Shown here: positions 8,994-35,637 of the stretch, one piece after another
Numbering within the stretch: position 1 is the stretch's first letter
How the letters are laid out: every line of letters starts with the position of its first letter
Source of the DNA: Treponema sp.
GTDB taxonomy: Bacteria > Spirochaetota > Spirochaetia > Treponematales > Breznakiellaceae
Assembly: GCA_031258305.1 (NCBI GenBank)
Contig: JAIRNA010000085.1
Span: forward strand, 1-39,756
Reading direction: 5' to 3'
Length of the DNA: 39,756 nt
Position numbers and translations under genes: made by a program
The notes under the pieces: model-generated
Told to the model about the DNA's origin: nothing
Databases searched by the model: none
Seen by the model: the letters and a program-made list of their open reading frames with translations, nothing else

Positions 8994-10088
8994 GTGGGCT
9001 GGGATACGACGGTCGTGATACCCGCACGGATTAACGGCAAGGGTGTTACCTCCATCGGGAAGGTGGCATTTAGCAGAGACTGGTTGACGAATGTGGTCAT
9101 CCCGGAGGGCGTTACCTCTATCGGGAATGAGGCGTTTTACGGCAGCCGGTTGACGAATGTGGTCATCCCGGCGGGTGTTACCTCCATCGGGAATAAGGCG
9201 TTTAGCGGCAACCAGTTGACGAGCGTGGTCATCCCGGTGGGTGTTACCTCCATCGGGGATGGGGCGTTTAGCGGCAACCGGTTGACGAGCGTGGTCATCC
9301 CGGTGGGTGTTACCTCCATCGGGGAGTCGGCGTTTAGCTTCAACCGGTTGACGAGCGTGGTCATCCCGGAGGGCGTTACCTCCATCGGGGAGTCGGCGTT
9401 TAGCGAAAACCAGTTGACGAGCGTAATTATACCGGAGGGCGTTACCTCCATCGGAGAGTCGGCGTTTCGCGGCAACCTGTTGACGAGCGTGGTTATTGGT
9501 AAGGGCGTTACCTCCATCGGGGAGGAGGCATTTCGCGGCAATCAGTTGACGAGCGTGGTCATACCGGAGGGCGTTACCTCCATCGGGAAAGATGCGTTTT
9601 GCGACAACCGGTTGACGAGCGTGGTCATACCGGACGGTGTTACCTCCATCGGGGGTTGGGCGTTTAGCGGCAACCAGTTGACGAGCGTGGTCATACCGGA
9701 GGGCGTTACCTCCATCGGGGAGTCGGCGTTTAGCGGCAACCGATTGACGAGCGTGGTCATACCGGAGAGCGTTACCTCCATCGGGAAGTCGGCGTTTCGC
9801 GACAACCAGTTGACGAGCGTAATTATACCGGAGGGCGTTACCTCTATCGGGGAGAGGGTGTTTGGCGGCAACCGATTGACGAGCGTGGTCATACCGGAGG
9901 GCGTTACCTCCATCGGGAAATATGCGTTTTGCGACAACCGGTTGACGAGCGTGGTCATACCGGAAGGTGTTACCTCCATCGGGAGAGAGGCGTTTGGCTA
10001 TAGCTTTGACGTCTTCTACAACAACAACGGCAAGAAGGCAGGGAAGTATACCTCCAGCGGCGGCACGTGGAGCTTCACGGCACGATAA
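8994..10088 (+). CDS. BspA-type leucine-rich repeat protein (N-terminus truncated)
   Basis: The open part encodes 364 residues made almost entirely of LRR_5/TpLRR repeats of 22 residues, consensus LTSVVIPEGVTSIGESAF. One irregular copy (VVIPARINGKGVTSIGKVAF) is followed by 14 regular ones. The protein ends in a non-repeat cap with FYNNNGKKAGKY and SGGTWSFTAR, the usual C-terminus of these treponemal proteins. Family members are surface or periplasmic adhesion-like proteins. Initiation is unclear: GTG at 8994 is the first start after the in-frame TGA but has no ribosome site, and the product would lack a signal peptide. The repeats are nearly identical at DNA level (66-bp period), so copy number probably changes by recombination. 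I regard it as a likely pseudogene with an intact repeat domain. Confidence 0.75.
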   Translation: MGWDTTVVIPARINGKGVTSIGKVAFSRDWLTNVVIPEGVTSIGNEAFYGSRLTNVVIPAGVTSIGNKAFSGNQLTSVVIPVGVTSIGDGAFSGNRLTSVVIPVGVTSIGESAFSFNRLTSVVIPEGVTSIGESAFSENQLTSVIIPEGVTSIGESAFRGNLLTSVVIGKGVTSIGEEAFRGNQLTSVVIPEGVTSIGKDAFCDNRLTSVVIPDGVTSIGGWAFSGNQLTSVVIPEGVTSIGESAFSGNRLTSVVIPESVTSIGKSAFRDNQLTSVIIPEGVTSIGERVFGGNRLTSVVIPEGVTSIGKYAFCDNRLTSVVIPEGVTSIGREAFGYSFDVFYNNNGKKAGKYTSSGGTWSFTAR

Positions 10089-29249: not shown

Positions 29250-30551
29250 CTATATTTTCCGTTTGTCAACCACCCGCTTGGCTTTGCCCAGAGAACGCTC
29301 GAAGGTTTTCGGCTCCACGAGCTTCACTTTTAAGCCGACTTGCAGTTTGGATTTCATCGCGCTTTCGATGCGGTGGCGCAAGCCTTCAAGGTCTTTGGTT
29401 TCATCGCTGAAGAATTCCTGTTTCACCTCGACTTGAAGCTCCACTTCATCCAAATGCGACGGACCTCGGTCTACGACAATCAGATAGTGGGGTTCGGTTC
29501 CCTCGATTTCTATGAGCGCGTGTTCGATTTGGCTGGGGAACACGTTGACTCCCCGAATGATGAGCATATCGTCCGTGCGTCCGAAAAGTCGGTGCATACG
29601 AATGCTGGTGCGTCCGCAAGAGCAGGGTTCTGGCATGAAGTAGGTGATGTCCCGGGTGCGGTACCGCAACAGGGGCGTGCCTTCTTTCGTGATAGTCGAA
29701 AATACCAGCTCGCCTTTTTCGCCCATGGGGACTTGTTTGCCGGTTTCTGGGTCGACGATTTCTGGGTAAAACAGGTCTTCATTGATATGTAAGCCGTTTT
29801 GCGCTTCACATTCGAAGGCTACGCCGGGGCCGATGATTTCCGTTAAACCATAGATGTCGTAGGCTTTCATACCGTAACGGGCTTCAATCTCCTTCCGCAT
29901 ATTTTCGCTCCAGGGCTCCGCTCCGAAACAGCCTTTGCAGATGGGCAATTTGTGGAGATCTACGCCATGTTCCCGCGCTTCTTCGGCCATATAAAGCGCG
30001 TAAGACGGGGTACAGGTGAGCATGGTCGAACCGAGCGCCTGCATTACCATTAGCTGCCGTTCCGTGTTACCGGAGGACATAGGCAGGACGTTTGCGCCTA
30101 TGGTACGAGCGCCGTAGTGGGCGCCGGGTCCGCCGGTGAACAGTCCGTAGCCGTAGCAGTTTTGCACCGTATCGTTCTTGGTACAACCCCCGCCAGCCAG
30201 GGTCCGCGCCATAGATTCGCACCAGATTTCGATGTCCGCGCGGGTGTAGGCGTCCATGACTGGTATGCCGGTCGTACCGGAGGACAGGTGAATCTCCTCA
30301 ATCATTGATTGAGGACACGCGAGGAACCCGTAGGGGAAATTATCGCGCATATCGTCTTTTGTGGTAAAGGGAAGTTTCTCGATGTCGGCAAGGCTGCGGA
30401 TGTCAGTCGTTTTGACGCCGAGTTCATCCATCTTTTTCCGGTAGAACGGAACCGCTTCGTAGAGCTTTTCCGTCAAGTTTTTGAGACGCGCGAGCTGGAG
30501 TTTTTGCCGAGTCGACGTCTCCATACATTCGTATTCGGGATTATAAATCAC
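29250..30551 (-). CDS. paaK: phenylacetate-CoA ligase
   Basis: PaaK (433 aa) activates phenylacetate or related aryl acids to the CoA thioester via an acyl-adenylate. The ATP-binding P-loop is SSGTTGIPV, followed by YGLTEIIGPG, the hinge region LFGRTDDMLIIRGVNVFP and the C-terminal lysine region RSLGKAKRV. The start is GTG at 30551, supported by an AAGGA site 8-9 nt upstream; an ATG nine codons later is the alternative. In fermentative anaerobes this ligase/ACT pair accompanies aromatic amino-acid fermentation through indolepyruvate:ferredoxin oxidoreductase, but that oxidoreductase is not in the window. The adjacent upstream DNA is the GTGTC repeat array. Confidence 0.93.
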   Translation of the reverse strand: MIYNPEYECMETSTRQKLQLARLKNLTEKLYEAVPFYRKKMDELGVKTTDIRSLADIEKLPFTTKDDMRDNFPYGFLACPQSMIEEIHLSSGTTGIPVMDAYTRADIEIWCESMARTLAGGGCTKNDTVQNCYGYGLFTGGPGAHYGARTIGANVLPMSSGNTERQLMVMQALGSTMLTCTPSYALYMAEEAREHGVDLHKLPICKGCFGAEPWSENMRKEIEARYGMKAYDIYGLTEIIGPGVAFECEAQNGLHINEDLFYPEIVDPETGKQVPMGEKGELVFSTITKEGTPLLRYRTRDITYFMPEPCSCGRTSIRMHRLFGRTDDMLIIRGVNVFPSQIEHALIEIEGTEPHYLIVVDRGPSHLDEVELQVEVKQEFFSDETKDLEGLRHRIESAMKSKLQVGLKVKLVEPKTFERSLGKAKRVVDKRKI

Positions 30552-30659: not shown

Positions 30660-31335
30660 AACGGGTGTCAGACACGCTCGGTCGGCTGTGTCCGCGCTCG
30701 GCGGGTGTCGGACGCTCGGCGGGTGTCGGACATGCACGGCGGGTGTCGGACGCTCGGCACGGTGTCCTCGGCACGGTGTCCTCGGCACGGGGCGGCGGGT
30801 GTCGGACGCTCGGCGGGTGTCGGACATGCACGGCGGGTGTCGGACGCTCGGCACGGTGTCAGACACGCTCGGCGGGTGTCAGACGCGGCAGGTGTCGGAC
30901 GCTCGGCGGGTGTCGGACGCTCGGCAGGTGTCAGATACGCTCGGCAGGTGTCCGCGCTCGGCAGGTGTCCGCGCTCGGCAGGTGTCCGCTCGGCACGACG
31001 GCACGGTGTCAGACACGCGGCAGTACGACGGCACGGTGTCAGACACGCTCGGTGGTGTCAGACGCGCAGTGCTTATAGCCGCCCGCGTAACGGCAGACGG
31101 TTCGGTGTCAGACACGCTCGGTCGGCGGGTGTCAGACACGGCGGGGCAGACACGCTCGGCGGGTGTCGGACACGGCGGTGTCGGACGCTCGGCACGGTGT
31201 CCGCGCTCGGCGGGTGTCAGACACGGTAGGTGTCAGACGCTCGGTGGTGTCAGACGCTCGGCACGGTGTCAGACGCGCAGTGCTTATAGCCGCCCGCGTA
31301 ACGGAAGACGGTTCGGTGTCAGACACCACATACTT
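30660..31335. repeat. degenerate GTGTC(A/G)GAC repeat array, about 31 units
   Basis: About 31 direct copies of GTGTC occur in roughly 660 bp, on average every 21 bp, all in one orientation. The unit is approximately GCTCGGC(G/A)GGTGTC(A/G)GAC, and many copies complete the dyad GTGTCAGACAC. The last copy is the perfect 13-bp palindrome GGTGTCAGACACC. Two longer duplications are embedded: 30711-30766 repeated at 30805-30860 (56 bp identical), and 31054-31115 repeated at 31265-31326 (62 bp, one mismatch). There are no unique spacers, so it is not CRISPR. All three plus frames are largely open only because the repeat lacks stop codons. Confidence 0.9.
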
Positions 31336-31831
31336 TTCTCGTAAATTTACTTTTTTAATTTACTTTTTTCTCTTGCATATTTCACCATAAGGTATTAAAA
31401 TGGCTATGATATGAAAATAAATTCCTTACGCGGCAGTCCAGAGAACCCGGCGCACGGAACATGTCCGATACAAGCGTCTCTCTTCCTCAAAGTCTCTTCC
31501 TCCCCCCCCCCCCATATCATATTTTATTATATAGCGGGACAACCCGCACAATTTGGGAGGATTCCTCCGAGACTCTGCGGCATGGTACAAAGTCCGAAAA
31601 GGGCTTTCTATCTTGTATAAAGAGAGTTTCGTATCAAGGGAACGTCCGTTTTCCCCATACGGACGAATTTGGAAAGTGCGGGTCTGGAAACGCAACGTGC
31701 GGGTCGAGGAACGCGGCTTGCGGGTCTGGAAACGTTTGGTGTCAGACACGCTCGACAGGTGTCAGACACCACATACCTTTGGCAAATACGGGCTTACGCC
31801 CGCTTTGAAATAACTTTTTTGGAGGTTCTTT
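31336..31831. other. gap with poly-C tract, short GCGGGTCTGGAAACG repeats and dyad
   Basis: No gene is convincing here. The stretch holds a run of 12 C (31502-31513), three nearby copies of GCGGGTCTGGAAACG or close variants (about 31678-31735), two GTGTCAGACAC dyads (31739-31770) and a CGGGC-TTAC-GCCCG hairpin (31789-31802) before the next gene's ribosome site. A 69-codon plus frame at 31411-31620 follows a TTGCAT/TAAAAT pair but has no recognisable content. Confidence 0.5.
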
Positions 31832-32536
31832 ATGGATTGGTATCCACGTTCACGAGATGAACAGATCCACCTAGTCGAAACCTGGCTCCTGGTGTTCACC
31901 GCCAAAGCCGCACTCTGGGGAATCCCTCAGAACATCATCACCAGCCTCTCCGCCGCGCTCACCGCCGCGAAGGAGAAGCTGACCGTCGTCAAGAGCGGCG
32001 AGCGCACTACCGCCAGCGTCGTCGCATGTAACGAAGTCTTCAAGGAACTGGAGACCGAGGCGCGTTTCCTGAAGAAGCACTACTTGCTCTTGCCGCCCCT
32101 CGTATTGGCAGACCTGCCCGCGTTGCTCCTGCCCCTGCCGGACCAAATCCACACGCCCATCGGGACGCCGACCGGGCAGCCGGTCATCAGCGTTACGTAT
32201 CCTGGCGGTCCCCACGTGTTAAAGGCGCATCTGGCGCCGCTTGCCGGGACCGAGCCGCCTGACAGCCGCGGGGACTACGGCTTCGCGGTGTACAAGGGCG
32301 TGATGCCCCAGGGCGGGGCAACGGTGGAACAAGCCGCAGGTGTCAGACACTACCTGATGAAGGAGCCGCTTTCCGGGGATGAGTTGCTCCATTACCGGTT
32401 CACGCGGCGGAAGATGGAGCTGGTAGACTTTGCTGCTGAGGAGTCTGGGATGACCGCGTTCTTCTGCGCGCGGTACGAGAATCAGAAAGGCGGGTATGGC
32501 TCGTGGGGTCCCGTTGCCTCTGCGGTGATACCGTGA
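31832..32536 (+). CDS. lineage-specific conserved protein, 234 aa
   Basis: The start is backed by GGAGG at 31821-31825. The N-terminal half is helical (WYPRSRDEQIHLVETWLLVF, ACNEVFKELETEARFLKK), and the C-terminal half is beta-rich, ending in FFCARYENQKGGYGSWGPV and SAVIP. The ending resembles fibronectin-like or growth-promoting repeats that stop in WGPxxSAxxP. I recall this architecture in many uncharacterised proteins of treponemes and Bacteroidetes, but no function is known. There is no signal peptide. The codons for AGVRHYL include GGTGTCAGACAC (32339-32350), the same motif as the array upstream. A long hairpin follows the stop. Base composition is higher in GC than the genes nearby. Confidence 0.75.
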   Translation: MDWYPRSRDEQIHLVETWLLVFTAKAALWGIPQNIITSLSAALTAAKEKLTVVKSGERTTASVVACNEVFKELETEARFLKKHYLLLPPLVLADLPALLLPLPDQIHTPIGTPTGQPVISVTYPGGPHVLKAHLAPLAGTEPPDSRGDYGFAVYKGVMPQGGATVEQAAGVRHYLMKEPLSGDELLHYRFTRRKMELVDFAAEESGMTAFFCARYENQKGGYGSWGPVASAVIP

Positions 32537-32597: not shown

Positions 32598-33335
32598 ATG
32601 ATGTTGATGATGAGGAGTATGAAAGCGCTTTTTGCCGTGGCGGTAGGAAGTGTGTTTACGAATGATAACACCGATGCGGGGGCGTATTACAACCGGGGTG
32701 TTACGTATTACAAGAAGGGAGATTACGACCGGGCTATTGTGGACTTTACCCAGGCCTTGCGGATCGACCCGAATTACATCAAAGCCTATAGGGAACGCGG
32801 CAATGCGTATTACAAGAAAGGAGACTATGACCGGGCTATCGCGGATTACAGCGGGGCGTTACGACTCGCCCCGAATGATGCGACGGCCTATTACAACCGG
32901 GGCAATGCGTATTACGACAAATGGGACTATGACCGGGCTATCGCGGACTACAGCGGGGCATTGCGGTTCGCCCCGAATGATGCGGCGGCCTATAACAACC
33001 GGGGCATTGCGTATAGGAACAAAGGGGACTACGACCGGGCTATCACGGACTACAACGAGGCGCTGCGGCTCGACCCGGATTATGCCGCGGCGTATGGCAA
33101 CCGGGGCATTGCGTATGACTACAAAGAGGACTACGACCGGGCTATCACGGACTACAACGAGGCGCTGCGGCTCGACCCGGATTATACGAGGGCGTATAAC
33201 AACCGGGGAGCTGCATATTACTACAAGGGGGAGTATGCCCGCGCCCGCGCGGACTGGGAGAAGGCCTTACAACTTAATCCCAACCATGCCGAGGCGCGGG
33301 ATAACCTTGAATTTCTACAAGATATGGGATATTAA
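32598..33335 (+). CDS. TPR protein, first of three tandem paralogues
   Basis: The 245-residue protein has six 34-residue tetratricopeptide repeats of the pattern AYYNRGNAYYKKGDYDRAIADY-ALRLxPN and a C-terminal capping helix (AEARDNLEFLQDMGY). The repeats are almost identical at DNA level, indicating recent expansion. A short hydrophobic start (MKALFAVAVGSVF) may be a degenerate signal sequence. TPR arrays bind proteins, and no enzymatic motif is present. Several ATG codons (32598, 32601, 32607, 32610, 32619) crowd the start; 32598 has AAGGA five nt upstream, while the paralogues begin at the ATGATG equivalent to 32607. It heads a run of three similar genes. Confidence 0.8.
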   Translation: MMLMMRSMKALFAVAVGSVFTNDNTDAGAYYNRGVTYYKKGDYDRAIVDFTQALRIDPNYIKAYRERGNAYYKKGDYDRAIADYSGALRLAPNDATAYYNRGNAYYDKWDYDRAIADYSGALRFAPNDAAAYNNRGIAYRNKGDYDRAITDYNEALRLDPDYAAAYGNRGIAYDYKEDYDRAITDYNEALRLDPDYTRAYNNRGAAYYYKGEYARARADWEKALQLNPNHAEARDNLEFLQDMGY

Positions 33336-33416
33336 AGAGAGCCCGTCAATAAACGACCATGTAGTGCGAGTCCATAGGCACGGCGTACATGGCGCGGCGT
33401 TTACGTTAGGAGGGTT

Positions 33417-33893
33417 ATGATGAGAAGTATGAAAAAGGCGCTTTTTGCCGTGGCCGTGGAAAGCGTGTTTACGAATGATAACACCGATGCGGCGGCGTAC
33501 TATAAACAGGGCAATGCGTATGCCGACCAAGGGGACTATGACCGGGCTATCGCGGACTACAGCGAGGCGTTGCGGCTCGACTCGAATCTTGCGGGGGTGT
33601 ATAATAACCGGGGTGTTGCGTATTACAAGAAAGAGGACTACGACCGGGCTGTCGCGGACTATAACGAGGCTCTGCGACTGGACCCGAATGATGCGCTGGC
33701 CTATAATAATCGGGGCAACGCGTATAGGAACAAAGGAGACTACGACCGGGCCATCGCGGACTATGCCCAGGCCCTGCGGCTCGACCCGAATCTTGCGGCG
33801 ACGTATTACAACCGGGTCCTCGCGTATGACGACCAAGGAGAATACACCCTCGCCCGTGCGGACTGGGAGAAGGCGTTACAACTCGATTCTTAA
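33417..33893 (+). CDS. TPR protein, second paralogue, C-terminus lost by frameshift
   Basis: The 158-residue product has four TPRs with the same leader (MMRSMKKALFAVAVESVF). It ends at EKALQLDS where its paralogues continue N-P-N plus a capping helix. Shifting one base after GAT TCT restores NNAEARNNLELLQDSS, so a single-nucleotide change has cut off the cap. The AGGAGGG ribosome site and the GGCGCGGCGTTTACGT stretch before it are duplicated upstream of the third gene. The remaining TPR solenoid is open and may still be made. Confidence 0.75.
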   Translation: MMRSMKKALFAVAVESVFTNDNTDAAAYYKQGNAYADQGDYDRAIADYSEALRLDSNLAGVYNNRGVAYYKKEDYDRAVADYNEALRLDPNDALAYNNRGNAYRNKGDYDRAIADYAQALRLDPNLAATYYNRVLAYDDQGEYTLARADWEKALQLDS

Positions 33894-33976
33894 TAATGCG
33901 GAAGCGCGGAATAACCTTGAACTTCTACAGGACAGCAGCACAGCGTACCTGGCGCGGCGTTTACGTAAGGAGGGTT

Positions 33977-34606
33977 ATGATGAGAAGTATGAAAAAGGCG
34001 CTTTTTGCCGCGGCCGCGGAAAGCGTGTTTGCAGATGACAACAACGATACGGCGGCGTACGGTAAATGGGTACTTGCGTATGACGACAAAAGGGACTACG
34101 ACCGGGCTATCGCGGATTACAGCGAGGCGATACGGCTCGACCCCAATGATGCGGCGGCCTATGTCAACCGAGGGCTTGCATATAGGAACAAAAAGGAGTA
34201 CGACCGGGCTGTCGCGGACTTTACCCAAGCCTTGCGACTGGACCCCAATGATGTGGCGGCGTATTTCAACCGGGGCAATACGTATGCCGACAAAAAGGAC
34301 TACGACCGTGCTGTCGCGGACTTTACCCAGTCCTTGTGGCTCAACCCCAATCTTGCTGAGGTGTATTTCAACCGGGGCCTTGCGTATGACGACCAAGGGG
34401 ACTACGACCGGGCTGTCGCGGACTTTACCAAGGCCTTGCGGCTCGACCCCAATAACGCGGCGACGTATTATAACCGGGGCATGGCGTATTACTACAAAGG
34501 AGATCATGCCCGCGCCCGCGCGGACTGGGAGAAGGCCTTGCAAGTCAACCCCAATTACACCGCTGCACGGGGGAATCTTGCAACCTTGCGGGGCATGGCG
34601 TATTAG
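33977..34606 (+). CDS. TPR protein, third paralogue
   Basis: The 209-residue product has five TPRs and an intact C-terminal cap (YTAARGNLATLRGMAY). The leader MMRSMKKALFAAAAESVF and the ribosome site AAGGAGGG are copies of those of gene two. The ATG at 33977 is chosen by homology and by that ribosome site; the open frame extends upstream to 33896 only because it runs into the frameshifted tail of gene two. The function is inferred to be protein binding only. Confidence 0.8.
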   Translation: MMRSMKKALFAAAAESVFADDNNDTAAYGKWVLAYDDKRDYDRAIADYSEAIRLDPNDAAAYVNRGLAYRNKKEYDRAVADFTQALRLDPNDVAAYFNRGNTYADKKDYDRAVADFTQSLWLNPNLAEVYFNRGLAYDDQGDYDRAVADFTKALRLDPNNAATYYNRGMAYYYKGDHARARADWEKALQVNPNYTAARGNLATLRGMAY

Positions 34607-34947: not shown

Positions 34948-35637
34948 CTATTCCACATCCCATAGCTTGATGGTCTTATCATAGGACCCGGAGACTATTC
35001 TGCTCCCATCCGGGCTGAACGCTACAGAATTTACAGAACTCGTATGTCCTATGAGTGTTTGCAGTTCACGTCCACTTGCCACACCCCATATCTTGATAGT
35101 ATTATCCTAGTACCCGGAGACTATCTTGCGTCCATCCGGGCTAAACGCCGCAGAACTTACCGAATCGGTATGCCCCAGGAGTGTTTGCAGTTCACGTCCA
35201 CTTGCCACATCCCATAGCTTGACGGTCTTATCTTTTGACCCGGAGACTATCCTGCGCCCATCCGGGCTGAATGCTACAGACATGACAGAATCGGTATGCC
35301 CCGTAAGAGTGAGTAGTACACATCCACTCTCCACATCCCATATCTTGATAGTATTATCGTAGGACCCGGAGACTATCCTGCTCCCGTCCGGACTGAACGC
35401 CACAGAACTTACCGAATCGGTATGCCCCAGGAGTGTTTGCAATACACGCTCGTTCATCGTATCTCATACCTTGATAGTATTATCGTAGGACCCGGAGACT
35501 ATCTTGCGCCCATCCGGACTGAACGCTACAGAACTAACTGTCCATGTATGCCCCGCGAGTATCTGTAGTACATACCAGAGCGATTCATCTTGCTGTATTA
35601 AGGATACCGATTCCGACTGTTGATGGGACTTCTTCAT
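34948..35637 (-). pseudogene. WD40-repeat protein interrupted by two stop codons
   Basis: A single frame of 230 codons from ATG 35637 (AAAGGAG site upstream) encodes five WD40 repeats of the form [31 protein letters not shown]. It is broken by TGA at 35464-35466, exactly where the conserved Trp of IKxWD should be (TGG to TGA), and by TAG at 35107-35109 in SGSYDNT. No frameshift is present. The five repeats would form an incomplete propeller, since seven blades are usual. No signal peptide is visible. The gene lies 56 bp downstream of ubiD on the same strand. The three open pieces could give truncated products, but I regard it as a recent pseudogene. Confidence 0.75.

Follow-up and report, generated by a model that had tools for sequence, protein, structure and literature searches.

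Between a paaK-like phenylacetate-CoA ligase gene (29250..30551, minus strand) and a gene of 234 aa (31832..32536, plus strand), a dense array of short units built on GTGTC(A/G)GAC occupies the window, by which we mean the whole analysed stretch of 39,756 nucleotides from a Treponema genome. The question raised by this locus is what kind of repeat the array represents and how it arose. We consider it probable that the array arose by tandem amplification, specific to its lineage and now decaying, of the terminal palindrome (GGTGTC-A-GACACC) of a REP-associated tyrosine transposase (RAYT/TIRYT kind) that is spreading in termite-gut treponemes.

The array extends from 30664 to 31327 and contains 31 GTGTC cores, every one on the plus strand, in agreement with the approximately 31 units in one orientation described by the first-pass annotation. 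The core is directly followed by NGAC, giving GTGTCNGAC, in 23 of the 31 units, and is shortened or altered (GTGTCCGCG, GTGTCCTCGG, GTGTCAGATAC) in the remaining eight. Over both strands of the window, GTGTCNGAC is matched 38 times, against 0.62 +/- 0.90 in shuffled sequences, and GGTGTCAGACACC with up to two mismatches 30 times, against 0.45 expected. The unit length of about 21 bp initially proposed holds as the mean spacing, although the majority of the units measure 16-20 bp and two measure 50 bp; similarly, the dyad ascribed to the best copies is present, but the perfect 13-bp form, GGTGTCAGACACC, is found in only one array unit, the last (31315-31327). Outside the extent first given to the array lie two further palindromes, GGTGTCAGACACG at 31738 and GGTGTCAGACACC at 31758 (31738..31770, plus strand), which form a small cluster in a segment shared with another contig, C67. 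Past the array, before the 234-aa gene begins, there are also small direct repeats at 31344-31369 (13 bp, two copies) and 31676-31734 (21 bp, 2.8 copies). Elsewhere in the window, the repeat regions 9040-9995, 32673-34498, and 34953-35572 include a 66-bp array of 14.5 units and TPR-like 102-bp and WD40-like 126-bp coding repeats, whose unit lengths are all multiples of three. A search of the array region against Rfam found nothing.

None of the array units carries a unique spacer, as had been noticed from the outset; the spacers are copies of one another, which indicates that the units do not stem from separate insertions. With its copied spacers and degenerate repeats, the array is not a CRISPR, as had also been stated, and this candidate was rejected. 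Two blocks are repeated inside the array on the plus strand, one of 68 bp (30699-30766 and 30793-30860, 100% identical) and one of 81 bp (31035-31115 and 31246-31326, 90% identical), which is a sign of tandem duplication. The earlier view that this is not an ordinary tandem repeat therefore needs to be divided: the array grew as a tandem repeat, as its copied spacers and duplicated blocks attest, but its recurring unit is the dispersed palindrome of a mobile element.

The array lies on the upstream side of the paaK-like gene, and it is absent from the equivalent site in 11 congeners, three of which (G009, G010, and G011) keep recognisable flanking sequence there. At this same site, G010 has a different short repeat, CACCCTTCGGGTG / ACGGGGTGTTATAAGAAAGG (locus L180), which suggests that the site collects repeats. 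The gene downstream of the array, originally described as lineage-specific, proved to belong to a multicopy family of unknown function that is represented in each of the 12 genomes of the genus by 2 to 24 matches, and whose product in the window has no Pfam match. The segment 31734..32142 (plus strand) has a paralogue with 85% identity over 419 bp on contig C67, where a paralogue of the 234-aa gene is preceded by a sister array with units of 46-50 bp; that gene copy is cut by the contig end, and its start is kept together with the array. The 50-bp unit of the 81-bp block resembles the C67 unit, and since the window array retains two units of this type, the unit length has turned over.

The retention of array and gene start at C67, together with the few other members of the gene family that have palindromes within 1.5 kb, is what could be expected of a regulatory or phase-variation repeat of the downstream gene, carried along when the gene was duplicated. 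A conserved array was, however, not found upstream of most homologues of the family, and none of the closest ones, which come from six other genomes and share about 70-75% identity, has a palindrome in the 76-1500 bp of upstream flank examined, which makes this explanation quite improbable. The palindrome inside the gene, at 32339, corresponds to matching residues without an insertion in the homologues, and thus gives no sign of having been inserted. Compared across these genomes, the window array reads as lineage-specific in its place and decayed in its form, with the dyad lost from most of its units.

The motif is not confined to this locus. There are 102 exact copies of GGTGTCAGACACC in the 2.48-Mb genome, against none of the reversed control, and the palindrome also occurs in related Treponema MAGs. 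The copies are mostly intergenic, with six of 28 palindrome clusters inside open reading frames of at least 120 aa, against 20.7 expected, and they occur as singles, as inverted pairs, and as many one-orientation arrays. The members of the inverted pairs are 3-4 bp apart and show strong single-strand folding (z of -8.7 and -7.2), and these pairs are outnumbered by the direct arrays. Unit lengths differ between arrays (about 18, 25, 28, 35, 42, 45, and 63 bp); spacers of the same array resemble one another, and those of different loci mostly do not. In 11 of 13 arrays the columns of the palindrome are better conserved than those of the spacer, the window array being one exception. One spacer is common to three arrays (L033, L041, and L046, on contigs C27, C50, and C80), and those on C27 and C80 also have part of their flank in common, as though units bracketed by palindromes had been copied from one locus to another.

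The distribution of these copies bears on the suggestion that the array binds a protein (for partition, nucleoid organisation, or regulation) and is kept by selection. A 13-bp dyad is typical of a dimer site, and both the intergenic bias and the better conservation of the palindrome in most arrays are in keeping with such a role. Nevertheless, congeners have anywhere from 0 to 207 copies of the palindrome, 11 relatives lack the array at the equivalent site, nearly all homologues of the downstream gene lack it on their upstream side, and the unit length varies between arrays, so that they have no common helical phasing. The partition or nucleoid reading is thus strongly disfavoured, and we regard a selected binding array as very improbable. 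When 294 genomes from the order were scanned, the palindrome was found only in this family.

A different alternative is that dispersed palindromes were stacked by short-read assembly. Many palindromes are near contig ends, and the contigs of the relatives have k119-type names that point to assembly from short reads, for which reason the array lengths are provisional and the true length could differ. On the other hand, the units are degenerate enough to assemble, arrays are found in several independent MAGs, and the related array of C67 lies on another contig; an assembly artefact is consequently a very remote explanation for the array as such.

The search for a Y1 transposase whose distribution matches that of the motif, which had been recommended as a check, gave a positive result. 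The genome has eight Y1 transposase genes, none of them in the window, where no RAYT gene is present. At four of these loci the palindrome lies on both sides of the gene, at two, near contig ends, it lies on the remaining side, and at two there is none. Among 53 RAYT loci of relatives, all from Treponema or Spirochaetales MAGs, the palindrome was found upstream of 47 and downstream of 44 (up to two mismatches, within 250 bp upstream), against about 0.2 in shuffled sequences, and the upstream copy frequently lies some 47 bp ahead of the start codon. The number of palindromes follows the number of close RAYTs, tallied by hand among the matches listed, with a Spearman coefficient of 0.77 over 60 genomes and 0.80 in the genus. 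In 49 RAYT left ends, the outer side of the palindrome is A-rich and the inner side carries AAGCAATT; GGCGTC/GACGCC pairs are present in the dyad, and the count of compensatory changes is not above that of shuffles. Together, the genome-wide palindrome and the RAYT flanks support the REP/RAYT-like cluster that was among the first readings of the array. Sequence comparison thus shows that the palindrome brackets RAYT genes, marks the edges of the copied unit, and is scattered intergenically in numbers that follow those of the RAYTs.

Related palindromes (GGGGACAGACCCC, GGGTCAGACCC, GTGCCAGACAC) flank the RAYTs of other subfamilies in these genomes, as would be expected of a transposase and a palindrome that change together. 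A second RAYT subfamily, in G021 (L213, L216, L220, L223, and L238-L240), has GGGTCAGACCC beside all seven copies examined. Two genomes, G021 and G024, have many Y1 genes, yet few or no copies of the GGTGTCAGACACC-type palindrome, a mismatch that is explained in part by other RAYT subfamilies with other ends. G024 has 115 first-look Y1 transposase candidates, many of them a divergent subfamily (L225-L237), and no palindromes of the GGTGTCAGACACC type were found near 13 copies of its RAYT subfamily.

The assignment of the transposase was made with one of the Y1 proteins of the genome as representative. This protein scores 95.8 bits against the NCBIfam RAYT model NF047646, above the cut-off of 80, and 24.9 bits against the IS200 model NF033573, below the cut-off of 55. 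The HUH motif (H59-I-H61) and the Y---NP motif (Y119-x3-N-P) are both present in alignment A2 and match the class-2 signature described for Y1 transposases (PMC6006769). Pfam recognises Y1_Tnp alone in these proteins of about 155-166 aa. The closest solved structure by sequence is 4er8, E. coli TnpAREP bound to a REP hairpin, which is also the best fold match of the predicted structure of a close relative, L088 (mean pLDDT of 84). By motifs, model score, and flanking palindromes, the transposase is a RAYT.

Copy number and the edges of homology suggest that these genes move. There are 22-39 RAYT matches, among the matches listed, in four congeners. In the MAG Cc175_bin106, 15 RAYT copies lie at unrelated sites and their homology stops at the palindromes: on the left, identity falls from about 0.8-0.97 to the chance level of about 0.25 past the palindrome and a short A-rich stretch, and on the right it is about 0.25 just beyond the palindrome (12 copies). 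Of the copies, 14 were aligned over the gene; all of these are intact and their dN/dS is about 0.07, and the mean dS between copies, about 0.5, indicates that they are not all recent. Mixed bins were rejected as the source of the copies, since these are intact and several share one 92-kb contig. The RAYT elements apparently transpose as units. A base-exact empty site was not found, the intergenic DNA downstream of purL being too diverged to align; after purL, most relatives with enough sequence have no RAYT, and G004 has one about 450 bp further on. RAYT insertions showed no strand preference relative to local GC skew, a weak test because skew measured across a few kb is noisy.

The described kind that comes closest is the TIRtron/TIRYT and, in a broader sense, the REPtron. 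TIRYTs have GGGGWSAS ends, and in some of their families the TIRs are self-complementary and are found as dimers or in clusters (PMC3733652); these TIRYTs (Di Nocera 2013) are probably subclass 2.1 of PMC6006769. In both systems a Y1 transposase is flanked by repeats, and GGTGTCAG fits GGGGWSAS at seven of eight positions, with T for G at position 3; other RAYTs of the family carry GGGGACAGACCCC or GGGGTCAGACCCC, and related ones have exact GGGGACAG/GGGGTCAG. Unlike TIRYTs, the proteins here have no C-terminal HTH (Bac_DnaA_C, HTH_23, HTH_28) found by Pfam, there are 20-40 matches per genome in several relatives, among the matches listed, and the arrays are long and in one orientation. With REPtrons (PMC2817692, PMC6006769, PMC8266576), the element shares an NF047646 transposase with HUH and Y---NP motifs, the 4er8 fold, and a dispersed intergenic palindrome that flanks the gene. 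Classical REPs, however, have a 5' GT(A/G)G tag at the foot of the hairpin, and no such tag was found beside the palindrome in the columns around the 49 RAYT left ends; the tag-reading residues of the E. coli protein are partly replaced (Q95 by G, E100 by S, and H101 by R, read off the structure-match alignment with the numbering of PMC6006769). As neither the tag nor the C-terminal HTH was found, we do not file the element as a classical REPtron or TIRYT, although it looks as if it works like one.

Tandem REP arrays that include flanking sequence and run in one orientation are known in Pseudomonas fluorescens SBW25 (PMC3116915). Both inverted pairs that fold as hairpins, as in the REPINs of that strain, and one-orientation tandem arrays occur here, but the inverted pairs are a minority, the arrays are more numerous, and their unit lengths and spacers are mostly locus-specific. 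The element also resembles IS200/IS605 in having a single gene, hairpin ends, and multiple copies per genome; it differs in its class-2 tyrosine motif, and membership was rejected because its protein falls below the IS200 cut-off. A published survey reported class-2 RAYT genes to be of low copy number with no evidence of mobility (PMC6006769), and the high-copy, apparently mobile RAYTs are new relative to these and to the REPtrons described so far. A literature search for the palindrome returned nothing on repeats or transposons, as judged by title and abstract; the palindrome family is new, as are the large one-orientation arrays.

Against the preferred reading as a whole count the missing tag, the absence of a RAYT gene from the window, the lack of a strand preference and of a base-exact empty site, and the mismatch in G021 and G024. 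A mechanism in which the RAYT takes part would have three steps. The transposase would recognise the palindrome as a single-stranded hairpin with a 5-bp stem and a 3-nt loop; by cutting and joining near it, it would seed palindromes and palindrome-bracketed segments at new sites; and where two copies came to lie in direct orientation, palindrome and spacer could be amplified together by slippage, by unequal recombination, or by the RAYT through repeated strand transfer. Only this last step is disputed by the reading of the array as an ordinary minisatellite, in which a stray RAYT end brought the palindrome to the site a single time and the array was then built by replication slippage or unequal recombination alone. 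Ordinary slippage without the RAYT could have done so: the 68- and 81-bp blocks, the spacers shared within but not between most arrays, and the turnover of unit length seen at C67 all speak for it. That arrays of one 13-mer occur at many loci in several species with little else in common, and that the palindrome is better conserved than its spacers in nearly all arrays other than that of the window, speaks against it, and we give this account of the amplification a little under an even chance. More tentatively still, the class-2 RAYT lineage of termite-gut treponemes may be a true autonomous transposon with 13-bp palindromes as its ends, in which any palindrome-bracketed segment can be mobilised or amplified and the RAYT itself builds the long one-orientation arrays of palindrome and spacer at many loci.

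For the organism, the array of the window is best seen as a by-product rather than an organ of the cell. Because they lie near many contig ends, such arrays may fragment the assemblies of termite-gut treponemes. For the RAYT family, the many intact copies per genome with palindromic ends in common make the mobility of the unit and the recognition of the palindrome directly testable.
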